Below, piece after piece: positions 3,847-28,634 of a stretch of DNA of 36,525 bases (positions are counted from its first letter, which is position 1; the number at the start of each line of letters is the position of its first letter). The notes below the pieces were generated by a model. The model was not told where the DNA came from. It saw nothing but the letters and a program-made list of their open reading frames with translations, and did not search any database. This DNA comes from a virus. The translations under genes were made by a program, and so were the position numbers. The stretch is from positions 1 to 36,525 of IMG/VR virus record IMGVR_UViG_3300035670_000692, one strand, 5' to 3'.

Positions 3847-3875
3847 TTGACTTTTCTTAAAAAATATGCTATAAT
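3847..3875 (+). promoter_or_regulatory. Strong rightward sigma70-like promoter for the structural operon
   Basis: TTGACT (3847-3852), a 17-base spacer ending TGC, and TATAAT (3870-3875). The transcript would start near 3882 and carry an AT-rich leader of about 108 bases containing CTATGCAG/CTGCATAG (3896-3903, 3947-3954) before the terminase genes. Confidence 0.8.
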
Positions 3876-5690: not shown

Positions 5691-6728
5691 ATGGAACCAA
5701 AGGGTTTATTCGAAGGCCTGCCTACCTCTGCTAACCTAGCTTTAGATTTGACTCCTGTTGTGGGAGACATCAAAGCTGGAGTTGAAGCTGTTGACTACGC
5801 TTCCAAGGGACGGTACACAGACTCAGTGCTTGCTGCTGCAGGTCTTCTTCCTTTTGTTCCTAGCCTTGCTAAGTACGCACCAGAAGTAAGTGGTATGTTT
5901 GGTAAGGCTGCTAAAGAAGCACCAAAGGAAAATGAAAACATTATGTTGATGGTTGCTGGCGATAAAGGTTTAAGAAACTTTATTGAAAAAGCCACTGACG
6001 AACAACTGGATAATATTCAAGTAAGCGTAACAGAAGCTAAGAAACTTCGTGATAGTGGTGCTAGTATTGAGAAGCAAGCCAAGCAAACTGGTTTCTGGTT
6101 TGGTAAAGATGGTAAGCTTCGTTTTGAGATTCCAGACACTGGTGCATTTCTTAAAGAAGATATCACAAAGCTTCCTGATAATACAGAGATGAAGGTAGGA
6201 GATTTACTTTCTCATCCTTTAATCTATGACTTCTACCCTGATCTAAAGGATGCTACTGTTCGTTTGGTTAACAAACCTAAGAGCACACACCGTGGTGCTT
6301 TCTATTATGACTCAGGTGTGATCGAACTTAATACCGCACACAAAGACTTTAAGAATCCTATCAATTCTATTTCTACTACTCTGCATGAAGCACAGCACAG
6401 TATTCAAGAAACAGAGAACTTTCTTAAAGGCGGTAACTGGAGAGAATATCTGAAAGATAAAAAGAACTTTACACAGGCTGAAGCTAAAGAAGCACAAGCA
6501 AAGTATTTAAAAGAGTATGGTGAAGCTGAGTCACGAAATGTACAGCTACGCTTTGAAGATCCTTTGTTTGAAAAGATGGCAGCAAAACAAGAGATACCAT
6601 TTACAAGTAAAGTAAAGGGTACAACCTTTCCAGAGACAATTGGACAAGATATCGAGACTGAAGCTTTCTTTGGACAGTCTTTAAGACCAGAAGACCTTTC
6701 ATACACTGATCCTTTCGGGAGACCCTGA
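5691..6728 (+). CDS. LPD23-like putative zinc metallopeptidase
   Basis: The start at 5691 is directly after the terminase stop; an earlier in-frame ATG lies inside the terminase gene. The product has 345 residues. The N-terminus has a Gly/Ala-rich hydrophobic stretch (LTPVVGDIKAGVEAVDYASK and AAAGLLPFVP) reminiscent of pre-toxin regions. The middle has GFWFGKDGKLRFEIPDTGA. A HEAQH motif (HExxH) lies at 232-236 and GEAESRNVQLRF near 277-288 could supply the third zinc ligand. This pattern matches large polyvalent protein domain 23 as I know it. Target unknown; it may be a virion-borne or maturation protease. It overlaps portal by one base. Confidence 0.65.
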   Translation: MEPKGLFEGLPTSANLALDLTPVVGDIKAGVEAVDYASKGRYTDSVLAAAGLLPFVPSLAKYAPEVSGMFGKAAKEAPKENENIMLMVAGDKGLRNFIEKATDEQLDNIQVSVTEAKKLRDSGASIEKQAKQTGFWFGKDGKLRFEIPDTGAFLKEDITKLPDNTEMKVGDLLSHPLIYDFYPDLKDATVRLVNKPKSTHRGAFYYDSGVIELNTAHKDFKNPINSISTTLHEAQHSIQETENFLKGGNWREYLKDKKNFTQAEAKEAQAKYLKEYGEAESRNVQLRFEDPLFEKMAAKQEIPFTSKVKGTTFPETIGQDIETEAFFGQSLRPEDLSYTDPFGRP

Positions 6729-8726: not shown

Positions 8727-8755
8727 TTGACAAACATTATATTTTATGGTATAAT
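8727..8755 (+). promoter_or_regulatory. Strong rightward promoter before the capsid cluster
   Basis: TTGACA (8727-8732), 17-base spacer ending TGG, TATAAT (8750-8755). It shares 17 identical bases (8742-8758) with the promoter at 16827. It lies in the only real gap after portal and should raise scaffold and capsid expression. Confidence 0.85.
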
Positions 8756-9294: not shown

Positions 9295-10110
9295 GTGGCT
9301 ACATTTACCGAAGCGCAAGATGATGACGAGCAAGTAGATCAGATTCAAGAATCTCATCAAGAGGAAGTTCTTGAAGAAGTAGAACAAGCACCAGAAGTAC
9401 AGCAGGAAGAACCTGAAGAGGAACTACCTAGCAAGTACAAGGGCAAGGATCTTAAAGAGATCATTAGGATGCACCAGGAGGCTGAGAAGCTTATTGGTCG
9501 TCAAGCCCAAGAGGTTGGTGAAGTTCGTAAGCTTGCAGACGAATTGATCAAGCGACAACTCGATAGTAAACCTAATCAACAGGAAGCCACAAAAGAAGAC
9601 GATGTAGACTTCTTTGCTGATCCAGACGCTGCTGTAACCAAGAAGATTGAGAAGCATCCTGCAATCCTAGAGGCACGAAAGCAAGCCCTAGAGTTAAAAA
9701 AGATGCAGACATTGAATCGGTTGCAACAAGAGTTTCCAGATTTCTATAGTACGCTGCAAGACCCAGACTTTGCTGAGTGGGTTAAGGCTTCACAAGTTCG
9801 TTTGCGTATGTACGCACAAGCAGATGCCGAAGGCGATTACGACTCTGCTGCTGAGTTACTGAGCAACTGGAAGTATGTGAAACCACAAGCTGCACCCAAG
9901 CAAGTTGTTCCTACTGCTGAAGTTAAGCAACAGCAAAAGGCAGCGGTCAAGCAAGCTACTGTAGATGTTGGAGGCGCAAGTCCTGGTGTTAGTTCAAGTA
10001 AGGTATATCGTAGAGCAGATCTTATCCGACTACAATTGGAAGACCCTGATCGGTATTACCAGCTACAAGATGAAATTATGTCTGCGTATGCTGAGGGTCG
10101 AGTTAAATAA
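9295..10110 (+). CDS. Scaffolding protein
   Basis: The gene starts with GTG at 9295 after an excellent AGGAGGA. The 271-residue product begins with a long Glu/Gln-rich disordered segment, continues with helices, and ends in a compact charged helical segment (RRADLIRLQLEDPDRYYQLQ) with a basic tail, as in scaffolds whose C-terminus contacts the coat protein. Its position directly before the major capsid gene is the strongest evidence. It would guide procapsid assembly and then leave the head. Confidence 0.8.
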   Translation: MATFTEAQDDDEQVDQIQESHQEEVLEEVEQAPEVQQEEPEEELPSKYKGKDLKEIIRMHQEAEKLIGRQAQEVGEVRKLADELIKRQLDSKPNQQEATKEDDVDFFADPDAAVTKKIEKHPAILEARKQALELKKMQTLNRLQQEFPDFYSTLQDPDFAEWVKASQVRLRMYAQADAEGDYDSAAELLSNWKYVKPQAAPKQVVPTAEVKQQQKAAVKQATVDVGGASPGVSSSKVYRRADLIRLQLEDPDRYYQLQDEIMSAYAEGRVK

Positions 10111-10132: not shown

Positions 10133-11050
10133 ATGGCACTTGGAACCAATCATGTAACGAAGACTACGGCGGATAAGTTTATCCCCGAGATTTGGAGTGA
10201 CGAGATTATCGCTGCATACAAGAAGAACCTTGTTGCGGCTAACCTGTTCTCCAAAATGTCCTTCAAAGGTAAGAAGGGCGACACGCTTCACATTCCTAAA
10301 CCCACTCGTGGCGATGCTTCGCTCAAGGCTGCTAGTTCTCAGGTTACCCTGATTGCTGCTACCGAGACTGAAGTGCAGGTGCTGATCAACAAGCACTATG
10401 AGTATAGCCGTCTGATCGAGGACATCGTTGAGGTGCAAGCCCTTGCCTCTTTGCGTAAGTTCTACACGGATGACGCTGGCTACGCTCTTGCTAAGCGTGT
10501 GGATACTGACCTTGTCGAACTGGGTCGTGCTGCTAACGGTGGTGATGGTACCGCCGATTACGACAAAGCATTCCTGGGTGGTGACGGTACGACTCTGTAC
10601 AATGACGGTACCAATGTCGGTACTGCTCTGGCTGATGCTGCTATTCGCCGTACCATTCAGCGTCTGGACGACAACGATGTTCCCATGACTGATCGCTTCC
10701 TGATCGTTCCTCCTTCTACCCGTAACAGCTTGATGGGTCTGAACCGCTTTACCGAGCAGGCTTTTGTTGGTGATGTTGGTTCTGCTAACACCATCCGTAA
10801 CGGTCAAATTGGTGATGTCTACGGTGTTAAAGTGTTTGTCACCACGAACGCTGACACGGCTACCACCAACACGACTCGTATCGCTCTGATGGCACACAAA
10901 GATGCATTCGTGCTTGCCGAGCAGATGGGTGTTCGTAGCCAGACTCAGTACAAGCAAGAGTACCTCGGAACGCTGTTTACTTCCGACATGCTCTACGGTG
11001 TTGCTGAACTGCGTGATAGTTCTGCCTTCGCCCTTGCTGTTCCTGCCTAA
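10133..11050 (+). CDS. Major capsid protein
   Basis: The ATG at 10133 follows TAGGAGATTTAAA. The 305-residue product has an N-terminal arm (MALGTNHVTKTTADKFIPEI) and a mixed alpha/beta body with an evident insertion rich in Gly/Asp (residues about 135-165). Length, position after scaffold and codon use biased to frequent GCT/GGT/CGT codons, as for the most abundant protein, support an HK97-fold coat. It is followed by a terminator-like hairpin and a second long hairpin. Confidence 0.9.
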   Translation: MALGTNHVTKTTADKFIPEIWSDEIIAAYKKNLVAANLFSKMSFKGKKGDTLHIPKPTRGDASLKAASSQVTLIAATETEVQVLINKHYEYSRLIEDIVEVQALASLRKFYTDDAGYALAKRVDTDLVELGRAANGGDGTADYDKAFLGGDGTTLYNDGTNVGTALADAAIRRTIQRLDDNDVPMTDRFLIVPPSTRNSLMGLNRFTEQAFVGDVGSANTIRNGQIGDVYGVKVFVTTNADTATTNTTRIALMAHKDAFVLAEQMGVRSQTQYKQEYLGTLFTSDMLYGVAELRDSSAFALAVPA

Positions 11051-11057
11051 TTAGGCT

Positions 11058-11088
11058 CTGCCCTGGCTCACAAGGCTGGGGCAGTTTA
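11058..11088 (+). terminator. Terminator-like hairpin after the capsid gene
   Basis: CTGCCC (11058-11063) pairs with GGGCAG (11079-11084) around a 15-base loop, followed by TTTACTT. It may partly terminate transcription after the capsid gene. Its right arm overlaps the base of the next hairpin, so the two structures could compete. Confidence 0.45.
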
Positions 11089-11132
11089 CTTAGTACATTG
11101 AGCAATTTCACTCAGTGTATTGAGTAAACTGT
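11081..11132 (+). promoter_or_regulatory. 22-bp stem-loop abutting the fibre ribosome binding site
   Basis: Bases 11081-11102 pair with 11111-11132 without interruption (18 Watson-Crick, 4 G-U pairs) around the 8-base loop CAATTTCA. The AAGGAG Shine-Dalgarno of the fibre gene begins at 11133. It looks like an RNase III-type processing site or a translational control element. Confidence 0.65.
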
Positions 11133-11144
11133 AAGGAGACACAA

Positions 11145-12896
11145 TTGGCTATCTATCGTGGTCCTGGTGGTCCAGGTGACGCTACTGCTGATTCAGCAAA
11201 CACTTCACAGGTAGTGCAAGACTTTGCAACACAGGCTGGTGTTAGTGCCGCTGCTGCTGCCGCTAGTGCTACCACTGCAAGCAATGCTGCTACTGCTGCT
11301 GGTGCTGCACAGACTGCTGCAGAGGCTGCACAATCTGCTGCAGAAACAGCAGAGACTAATGCTGAAACTGCTGAGACTAACGCAGAAACAGCGCAGACAG
11401 CAGCAGAGGCAGCACAAGCTGCAGCAGAAGCAGCGCAGACTGCTGCTGAACTAGCAGAGACTAACGCTGAGACAGCGGAGACCAATTCTGAATCAGCGCA
11501 AACTGCAGCAGAAGCAGCACAAGCCGCTGCTGAAGTTGCGCAGACTGCTGCTGAATTAGCAGAGACCAATGCTGAAACTGCTCAAACTGCTGCTGAAACA
11601 GCCCAACTAGCAGCAGAAACTGCTCAAACTGCTGCTGAACTAGCAGAGACTAACGCTGAAACATCAGAGACAAATGCGGCTGCTAGTGCATTAGCAGCTT
11701 CTACAAGTGAAAGTAATGCTTCAGCATCAGAAATTGCTGCTGGTGCTGCACAGTTAGCAGCAGAAACAGCAGAGACTGGTGCATTAGCAGCACAGGTTGC
11801 TGCAGAAGCAGCGCAGTTAGCGGCAGAGAATGCACAGACTGCTGCTGAGTTGGCTGAGACCAATGCTGAAACAGCAGAAACTGGTGCATTGGCTGCACAA
11901 GCAGCAGCGGAATCTGCAAGGGATTCTGCACTGGCAGCGTATGATAACTTTGATGATCGTTATCTTGGTGCTAAGACTTCTGACCCCACACTAGACAATG
12001 ATGGTGATGCTCTAGTTGCTGGTGCTTTGTATTTCAATTCTGTTGATGGAGAAATGCGTGTCTACACTGGTAGTGTCTGGGTAGATGCTTATGCTGCTGG
12101 TACATTATTTTTAGCTAAAGCAAATAATCTTTCTGATCTTCCTAATGTTGCTACCGCAAGGCAGAACCTTGACCTAGAGATTGGTGTAGATGTTCAGGCT
12201 TATGATGCCACTATTCTTAAATCAGCAGACATTGGTGTAACAGTACAAGGCTACGATGCTAATACTTTAAAGTCAGGAGACATCGGTGTTACGGTACAAG
12301 GTTACGATAGTGACACTGCAAAGTATGATGCTACTACTGCTAACTTCACAGGAACATTGCAGAATGGCGGCAACAATGTTTTAACTACTGCTTCTGATTA
12401 TCTTGACAGTGCTGACATCGGTGTTACGGTACAAGGTTACGATAGTGACACAGCTAAGTATGACGATGTTACGGCAAACTTTACTGGTACGCTTCAGAAC
12501 GGAGGCAGTAATGTTTTAGTGGACACTGACATCGGTAGCACTGTTCAAGCTTACGATGCTACTATTGTAGTTGACGCTGACATTGGTGTTACGGTGCAGG
12601 GCTATGATGCTGACACTGCAAAATATGATGATGTTACTGCTAACTTTACTGGTACTTTACAAAATGGTGGTAGCAATGTTTTAGTAGATACTGACATTGG
12701 TTCTACTATACAAGCTTATGATAGCAATTTAACTTCTTTTGTTTCTACTTTTACACTTCCTACTACAGATGGAACTGTTGATCAAGTTTTAAAAACAGAT
12801 GGTTCTGGTACATTATCTTTTACTACTGTAAGTGGAGGAGGCGGTGGCATTACAACTGGTAAAGCTATTGCAATGGCAATGATTTTCGGAGGATAG
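11145..12896 (+). CDS. Tail fibre protein with Ala-rich repeats
   Basis: The gene starts with TTG at 11145 after TAAGGAGACACAA. The 583-residue product has a short N-terminus (MAIYRGPGGPGDATADSANT), then about 230 residues of Ala/Glu/Thr/Gln repeats (units like AETAETNAETAQTAAEAAQ) expected to form a long trimeric coiled coil. Around residue 265 a fibre motif YDNFDDRYLGAK is followed by ALYFNSVDGEMRVYTGSVWV. The C-terminal half carries tandem repeats of IGVTVQGYD and NFTGTLQNGGSNVL. It should form a host-contacting fibre. The repeats in DNA could recombine. Confidence 0.8.
   Translation: MAIYRGPGGPGDATADSANTSQVVQDFATQAGVSAAAAAASATTASNAATAAGAAQTAAEAAQSAAETAETNAETAETNAETAQTAAEAAQAAAEAAQTAAELAETNAETAETNSESAQTAAEAAQAAAEVAQTAAELAETNAETAQTAAETAQLAAETAQTAAELAETNAETSETNAAASALAASTSESNASASEIAAGAAQLAAETAETGALAAQVAAEAAQLAAENAQTAAELAETNAETAETGALAAQAAAESARDSALAAYDNFDDRYLGAKTSDPTLDNDGDALVAGALYFNSVDGEMRVYTGSVWVDAYAAGTLFLAKANNLSDLPNVATARQNLDLEIGVDVQAYDATILKSADIGVTVQGYDANTLKSGDIGVTVQGYDSDTAKYDATTANFTGTLQNGGNNVLTTASDYLDSADIGVTVQGYDSDTAKYDDVTANFTGTLQNGGSNVLVDTDIGSTVQAYDATIVVDADIGVTVQGYDADTAKYDDVTANFTGTLQNGGSNVLVDTDIGSTIQAYDSNLTSFVSTFTLPTTDGTVDQVLKTDGSGTLSFTTVSGGGGGITTGKAIAMAMIFGG
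11290..11930 (+). repeat. Ala-rich coiled-coil coding repeats
   Basis: Imperfect 21-base units encoding AETAQTA, AEAAQAA and AELAETN variants are repeated throughout. The frequent GCA/GCT exchange and CAGCAG runs mark repeated duplication and drift. Confidence 0.8.
12230..12725 (+). repeat. Tandem repeats in the fibre C-terminal half
   Basis: Units coding IGVTVQGYD...YDDVTANFTGTLQNG recur several times. A 38-base block is identical at 12279-12316 and 12414-12451, 135 bases apart, so copy-number change by slippage is possible. Confidence 0.8.
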
Positions 12897-26123: not shown

Positions 26124-26151
26124 AAAAAAGGCTAGACATCTCTGCCTAGCC
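26122..26151 (-). terminator. Terminator at the end of the leftward unit
   Basis: On the minus strand GGCTAG pairs with CTAGCC (26151-26146 and 26135-26130) around a 10-base loop and is followed by eight T residues. It lies 28 bases beyond the last leftward gene. The hairpin could also slow rightward transcription, though that side lacks a T run. Confidence 0.8.
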
Positions 26152-28229: not shown

Positions 28230-28391
28230 TTATTCCCAGTCAATTTGTTTTAATAAGATCTCAGCTTTACACTCTATCACATCAGAGAACCTATCTACTA
28301 AGTCCTCTGATGTTACACCTAGTATTTCTAATAGAGTTACTTCGTCTAATTGCTTTAACCTTTCACTAATCTCAGGTAAAGTTAGAGTCAT
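28230..28391 (-). CDS. Small conserved phage protein (53 aa)
   Basis: The ATG at 28391 begins MTLTLPEISERLKQLDEVTL, then LEILGVTSEDLVDRFSDVI and an end LLKQIDWE; TAA at 28232-28230. The LPEIxxxLKxLDExTLLExLxxxSxDLVxxFxD pattern is one I recognise as a widespread small phage protein of unknown role. It overlaps nothing but sits tightly before the reductase start (28225). It is helical and acidic. Confidence 0.7.
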   Translation of the reverse strand: MTLTLPEISERLKQLDEVTLLEILGVTSEDLVDRFSDVIECKAEILLKQIDWE

Positions 28392-28605: not shown

Positions 28606-28634
28606 ATTATATCACTTCTTGTAGTATTTGTCAA
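28606..28634 (-). promoter_or_regulatory. Leftward sigma70-like promoter before the reductase cluster
   Basis: Minus strand TTGACA (28634-28629), 17-base spacer ending TGA, TATAAT (28611-28606). It drives the 55- and 53-residue genes and the reductase. The -35 lies in the 3' end of the DUF3310 gene. Confidence 0.85.

Follow-up and report, generated by a model that had tools for sequence, protein, structure and literature searches.

The question raised by this locus is why a long RNA hairpin should lie between the major capsid gene of a phage and the Shine-Dalgarno (SD) sequence of the fibre gene that follows it. The window, that is, the whole stretch of DNA analysed, is a virus record from IMG/VR with 36,525 bases, where the structural genes (terminase, portal, scaffold, capsid and fibre) are on the + strand and the replication and nucleotide genes (ribonucleotide reductase, exonuclease, DNA polymerase, primase-helicase and ThyX) on the - strand. 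A strong terminator-like hairpin with eight T is found at 26130-26151 (-), where the two gene blocks meet. The features of the junction, and of the unit leading up to it, are as follows:

8727-8755 (+), consensus sigma-70 promoter, TTGACA-17-TATAAT with TGG before the -10 (12/12 match), which would drive the scaffold-capsid unit
9295-10110 (+), probable head scaffolding protein gene (PHROG 19777 head scaffolding, E 1e-6)
10133-11050 (+), major capsid protein gene, 305 aa (PHROG 267 major head protein, E 1e-50)
11058-11084 (+), T, an intrinsic-terminator-like GC-rich hairpin of 11 pairs, 7 of them GC
11085-11094 (+), weak U-tract of T, TTTACTTAGT, which doubles as the opening part of the 5' arm of H2, a sharing that recurs in relatives
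11081-11132 (+), H2, the long hairpin, with 22 gap-free pairs (20 in the minimum free energy (MFE) structure, with T folded) and an 8-nt loop
11133-11138 (+), SD of the fibre gene, AAGGAG
11145-12896 (+), tail-fibre-like gene with a TTG start, 583-aa ORF (PHROG 38058 tail fiber, E 9e-23)

In a close relative, L002, an ATG stands in alignment with the TTG at 11145 and precedes the same start of the protein (MAIYRGPGGPGDAT); the N-terminus of the fibre gene is common to the ATG-started relatives.

Structure of the junction

The original prediction described a perfect 22-bp hairpin with four G-U pairs, ending exactly before the AAGGAG of the TTG-started fibre gene, and this description proved correct. 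On the + strand, 11081-11102 pairs with 11111-11132 without gaps (6 GC and 4 GU pairs) around the loop CAATTTCA, and AAGGAG begins at 11133, directly past the last pair. H2 is the longest gap-free stem of the window, the next independent one having 14 bp, whereas 30 dinucleotide-shuffled versions of the whole window had maxima of 11–17 bp. The long, near-perfect double-stranded stem that characterizes an RNase III site is thus present, with 20–22 bp predicted. Folding of 11040-11160 likewise gave a strongly stable structure (-49.8 kcal/mol, z = -6.6, with 0 of 200 shuffles equally low), both hairpins being present in the best fold. Another long hairpin, of 18 bp with one mismatch, is located at 28275-28317 (-), just upstream of the ribonucleotide reductase start at 28243.

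T stands directly after the capsid stop codon (11050), with H2 as the second half of a doublet, and has the GC-rich hairpin followed by a U-rich tract of a rho-independent terminator, although the tract is weak. The predicted overlap of this terminator-like hairpin with the base of H2 exists and amounts to 4 nt. As only these four bases are shared, T and H2 are not alternative states, contrary to what had been suggested. In fact, competition is limited to two basal pairs, and the best fold holds both hairpins stacked end to end, with 9 bp at 11060-11068/11074-11082 and 20 bp at 11083-11102/11111-11130, separated by a 0-nt gap, which speaks against mutually exclusive hairpins in the window; the same 0-nt gap is found in 41 of the 43 H2-bearing regions described below. 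In the best fold, moreover, window positions 11040-11044 (UUCCU, at the end of the capsid gene) pair with 11134-11138, part of the fibre SD; this pairing spans T and H2, and a ribosome finishing the capsid could open it.

Several other identities were considered for H2. It is not a second terminator, as the stem is followed by AAGGAG instead of a U-tract and the terminator scan shows none ending there on either strand. Neither is it a promoter, there being no sigma-70 match at this place and the sequences of the relatives being too divergent. An antiterminator of the HK022 put type is disfavoured by the location of H2 3' of T and by its non-conserved sequence. The search of Rfam 15 gave no matches above the gathering score in the window and 10 loci.

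Recurrence in related phages

Relatives were collected by capsid searches of viral_contigs (best 80 of each list) and by a pattern search, yielding a set of at least 253 records, counting the window, and 200 loci where the capsid end is complete and at least 110 nt follow it. With the same contigs recurring, these loci were collapsed (ungapped identity under 90%) to 85 distinct regions, among which indel-shifted kin may count twice. A degenerate DNA pattern of the H2 arm, run over viral_contigs, returned 46 stretches, mostly chance, and added L093 and L108.

Among the matches listed, an H2 above the 99th percentile of shuffles was found in 43 of the 85 distinct regions, where about 0.7 would be expected. 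The boundary between T and H2 was set to maximise the summed score, which slightly favours real sequences over shuffles; the independent control for the two-stem scan comes from other windows of the same loci, where the score was reached in 47 of 5100 random windows and in 15 of 266 lying upstream of other SD-starts. A stem with a GC-weighted core score of at least 15 follows the capsid stop in 80 of the 85 regions, some of these picks being H2 itself. The two-stem scan gave no stem pair at all in 12 regions. Within the 43, the 5' arm of H2 opens with the terminator U-tract in 41, the stems have 14–22 bp (median 17) with loops of 3–10 nt, and 13 are perfect, 23 carry one mismatch and 7 carry two. 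The U-tracts of H2-bearing terminators were not clearly weaker (p = 0.15–0.30), in a comparison where the scan took H2 for T in several loci. In L021, L023, L031 and L050, an outer AT-rich stem encloses the terminator and replaces the second hairpin, the U-tract region being paired differently.

At the 99th-percentile threshold 42 of the 85 regions are without H2, which means that H2 is not essential. When the trait is mapped on a capsid tree of the 85 sequences, 18 gains or losses are required, 15 of them forced by well-supported branches, against a shuffled mean of 28.8; H2 is clustered on this tree, yet often gained, lost or exchanged. Judged by fold only, no 0-nt doublet is present in the capsid-nearest isolates (Pf-WMP3, Pf-WMP4, A-4L, CHP58, HTVC011P and HTVC025P) or in T7, and a literature search, with most subscription journals outside its coverage, found no report of such a doublet.

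The dimensions of these stems bear on the possibility, which we hold to be rather unlikely, that H2 is an uncut structural cap. Such a cap would block 3' exonucleases on read-through or decaying mRNA, and would also shield the AU-rich junction from single-strand endonucleases, so that capsid mRNA or fibre leader would be stabilised with no part played by RNase III. Stems of 14–18 bp with mismatches would suffice for this purpose, no unpaired linker separates T from H2 in those 41 of 43 regions, and exonuclease-blocking hairpins have been proposed for ahpC and pflB (PMC5371410). Nevertheless, T alone is already a stable 3' hairpin, and the placement of H2, flush with or within the SD, goes beyond the needs of 3' protection.

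Sequence turnover and pairing

The original prediction had looked to relatives for covariation of the stem, with unpaired substitutions as the contrary outcome. Three small alignments, of five (A4), four (A5) and seven (A6) sequences, bear on this point. In A4, which comprises the five nearest sequences, 96.2% of the cells are paired and two pairs have changed on both sides (GC to AU and CG to UA), but three of the 21 pairs are broken, each in one or two sequences; this comparison mostly favours the stem. The second family, A5, is 100% paired over 18 pairs, one mismatched pair being left out, and again has two pairs changed on both sides (UA to CG). In the third, A6 (family E), 16 of the 17 stem pairs are invariant, one mismatched pair being left out, while the loops around which the stem is kept are hypervariable in length and letters; with its 16 inner stem pairs unchanged, A6 attests conservation only and was rejected as covariation evidence. 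Covariation is thin overall, with few compensatory changes: on the main measures the stem is equalled by 9 to 80 of 500 shuffles, and on further pair types it has no advantage over them. The stronger argument is that stems of one type, identically oriented and placed, are formed by unrelated sequences at a frequency far exceeding that of the controls.

In the family of the window (window 11083-11130; L002 6348-6397) each arm of H2 is nearly palindromic (ACTCAGTGTATTGAGT), and the arms are therefore also direct repeats, most clearly in L002. These arms, together with the varying identity of the gene after the junction among relatives, could speak for an inverted repeat acting as DNA, either as a protein-binding operator or as a recombination boundary, with the RNA stem as a by-product. 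This is, however, highly improbable: a second copy of the palindrome is absent from the window, which also eliminates a repeated operator, other families share stem, orientation and position with unrelated sequence, and the start of the 5' arm coincides with the terminator U-tract almost throughout (41/43).

Position at the end of the capsid cassette

Different relatives carry different genes after the junction, and the doublet is not always directly behind the capsid gene. Ten loci were chosen for having no H2 directly after the capsid, and in four of them (L136, L144, L145 and L251) a gene of 107–109 aa follows the capsid, with the doublet after that gene. When the window and nine near-complete relatives, these as two-piece copies, were scanned, doublets turned up in four records, namely the window, L275, L276 and L263, and at no place other than this junction. 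That of L275 has the position of the L048 junction, and that of L276 lies a few hundred bases after the L139 capsid, thus past the extra gene. The stem in L263 resembles an insertion into the terminator at the L028 junction more than a true doublet; a 39-nt palindromic insertion within the terminator hairpin is seen at 5958-5996 (-) of L263 and also after the capsid of L028. From these positions we infer that the doublet marks the end of the capsid cassette.

Transcription of the structural genes

The layout from promoter to terminator seen in the window recurs in its relatives. A promoter match of at least 11/12 is present in 43 of 71 related regions (those of the 85 with enough upstream DNA), compared with 3 of 213 shuffles, and nearly all of these promoters precede the capsid stop by about 2.3 kb. 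No + strand promoter above 9/12 occurs from T to 16827 and, consequently, the genes from 11145 to about 16.8 kb seem dependent on transcription passing T. Other promoter-like sites, with 11–12 matches and TG before the -10, are located at 3847 and 16827 on the + strand and at 28634, 35166, 33338, 31622, 2746 and 1225 on the - strand.

A phage-encoded single-subunit RNA polymerase, the companion of a T7-like capsid unit, was found neither in the window nor in 11 relatives: the PF00940 search gave no match in the record of the window and 0/11 in the relative records, which may be incomplete, while phage T7 as a control gave a match in the same search. A phage-polymerase promoter is accordingly disfavoured as an identity of the element. 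The distribution of promoters suggests that the whole phage may be run by the sigma-70 polymerase of its host.

Accessibility of the fibre Shine-Dalgarno sequence

The SD could be placed in 38 of the 43 H2-bearing regions: it starts 0–4 nt past H2 in 19 of them, falls within the 3' arm or overlaps it in 16, and is farther away in 3. These positions bear on a possible control of translation by H2, in which the U-tract of read-through RNA would pair with the SD or its flank and silence the gene as long as the stem is neither opened nor cut. In the 16 regions where the SD is inside or overlaps the stem its median predicted accessibility is 0.27, compared with 0.625 outside, and the relief by RNase III of an occluded ribosome-binding site is established for adhE and lambda cIII, where stems hide the ribosome site until they are cut (PMC5371410). 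The SD is outside the stem in the other 22 of 38, however, including the window (predicted accessibility 0.52), where neither SD nor start codon is paired inside the stem, and H2-less regions have a median accessibility of 0.445, which indicates that H2 does not uniformly hide the SD. Control of translation is thus an unlikely main role, and the switch by SD sequestration originally envisaged finds no support in the window itself, the 16 relatives differing in this respect.

A proposed partial terminator and processing stem

The explanation that we favour, holding it with about even confidence, is that the doublet is a boundary element in which a partial terminator is combined with a double-stranded stem processed by an RNase III-type enzyme, splitting the capsid message from a read-through fibre message. 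Among the roles originally proposed for H2, an RNase III site or a 3'-end protector is the most plausible class predicted, and fits the anatomy.

According to this scheme, host RNA polymerase would start at the consensus promoter at 8727 and produce an abundant scaffold-capsid mRNA. Most polymerases would stop at T, judging by its anatomy, leaving a capsid mRNA with a stable 3' hairpin, and the remaining ones would pass the weak U-tract and serve the fibre and the following genes, as the lack of a strong + strand promoter up to 16827 implies. The 3' arm of H2 would be present in read-through RNA only and, consequently, only this RNA could form H2, stacked on T. There, H2 would most likely be cut or trimmed by a host nuclease specific for double-stranded RNA (RNase III type), setting capsid and fibre mRNA apart. 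After the cut, T would remain as the 3' end of the capsid mRNA, and the fibre mRNA would have a short, SD-proximal 5' end.

Stems of 14–18 bp, the usual size in the relatives, where most have 15–18 bp, are short for an efficient RNase III substrate. This fact tells against the processing model, as do the 42 of 85 regions where H2 is missing, its 18 gains or losses and the thin covariation; an SD in or overlapping the stem in 16 of 38 relatives is also not predicted by a pure processing model. The H2-less regions and the cases with the SD in the stem suggest that, for some members of the group, the role may be structural or translational.

More tentatively, and as less likely than not, the doublet may be a recurrent cis-acting RNA element of a kind not described before, which could be called a 'captured U-tract' doublet and would belong to a large group of uncultured phages that rely on host sigma-70 promoters. 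Its U-tract would be free in terminated RNA and become an arm of H2 only in read-through RNA. If this were true, the same bases would mark a transcript as finished or read through, and would set both its processing and the translation downstream.

Comparison with known systems

In the rplJL-rpoBC operon of E. coli, a partial terminator (attenuator) is followed by an RNase III processing stem, which lowers and separates downstream expression. This attenuator-plus-processing layout would be shared with the window, although the intergenic region of rplJL-rpoBC is long in comparison with the compact 0-nt doublet. In lambda tI/sib, an RNase III hairpin is formed only upon read-through of the terminator, and sib processing destabilises the int mRNA. 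The read-through-only hairpin would be common to both systems, but in the window T stays intact upstream of H2 and remains as a 3' hairpin, an anatomy that would argue against retroregulation of the sib type.

In T7 (NC_001604) the order gene 10 - Tphi - gene 11 resembles that of the window, a terminator being placed directly after the capsid and before a tail gene. Nevertheless, Tphi is a single hairpin without H2, and T7 encodes its own RNA polymerase, of which no counterpart was found in the record of the window.

A likeness in anatomy is also offered by the pflB-pflA and ahpC-ahpF junctions of E. coli (PMC5371410). RNase III cuts between pflB and pflA, past a strong rho-independent terminator, and also between ahpC and ahpF, both cuts stabilising the upstream mRNAs. 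As at the phage junction, an abundant upstream gene is followed by an intergenic stem in the read-through mRNA, stabilisation of the upstream 3' end has been proposed, and a stem beyond the terminator, like that of the window doublet, is stated for pflB (PMC5371410). In contrast, cleavage at the E. coli sites is experimental, whereas here, in a phage, it is predicted, with T and H2 fused through a shared U-tract; furthermore, the pflA site overlaps a promoter, and none is seen at the window doublet.

Implications for the phage group

The doublet is likely a real, selected-looking RNA element with an ordinary function, and probably a conventional device for separating and balancing two messages. 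Phages need far more capsid than fibre protein, and a group in which no T7-type polymerase could be detected seems to meet this need by combining a host promoter with a leaky terminator and a second stem stacked on it, the architecture of the module persisting while its letters change. The doublet therefore offers a defined and testable case of terminated and read-through messages being handled differently, as well as a positional signature for locating the ends of capsid cassettes in uncultured phages.
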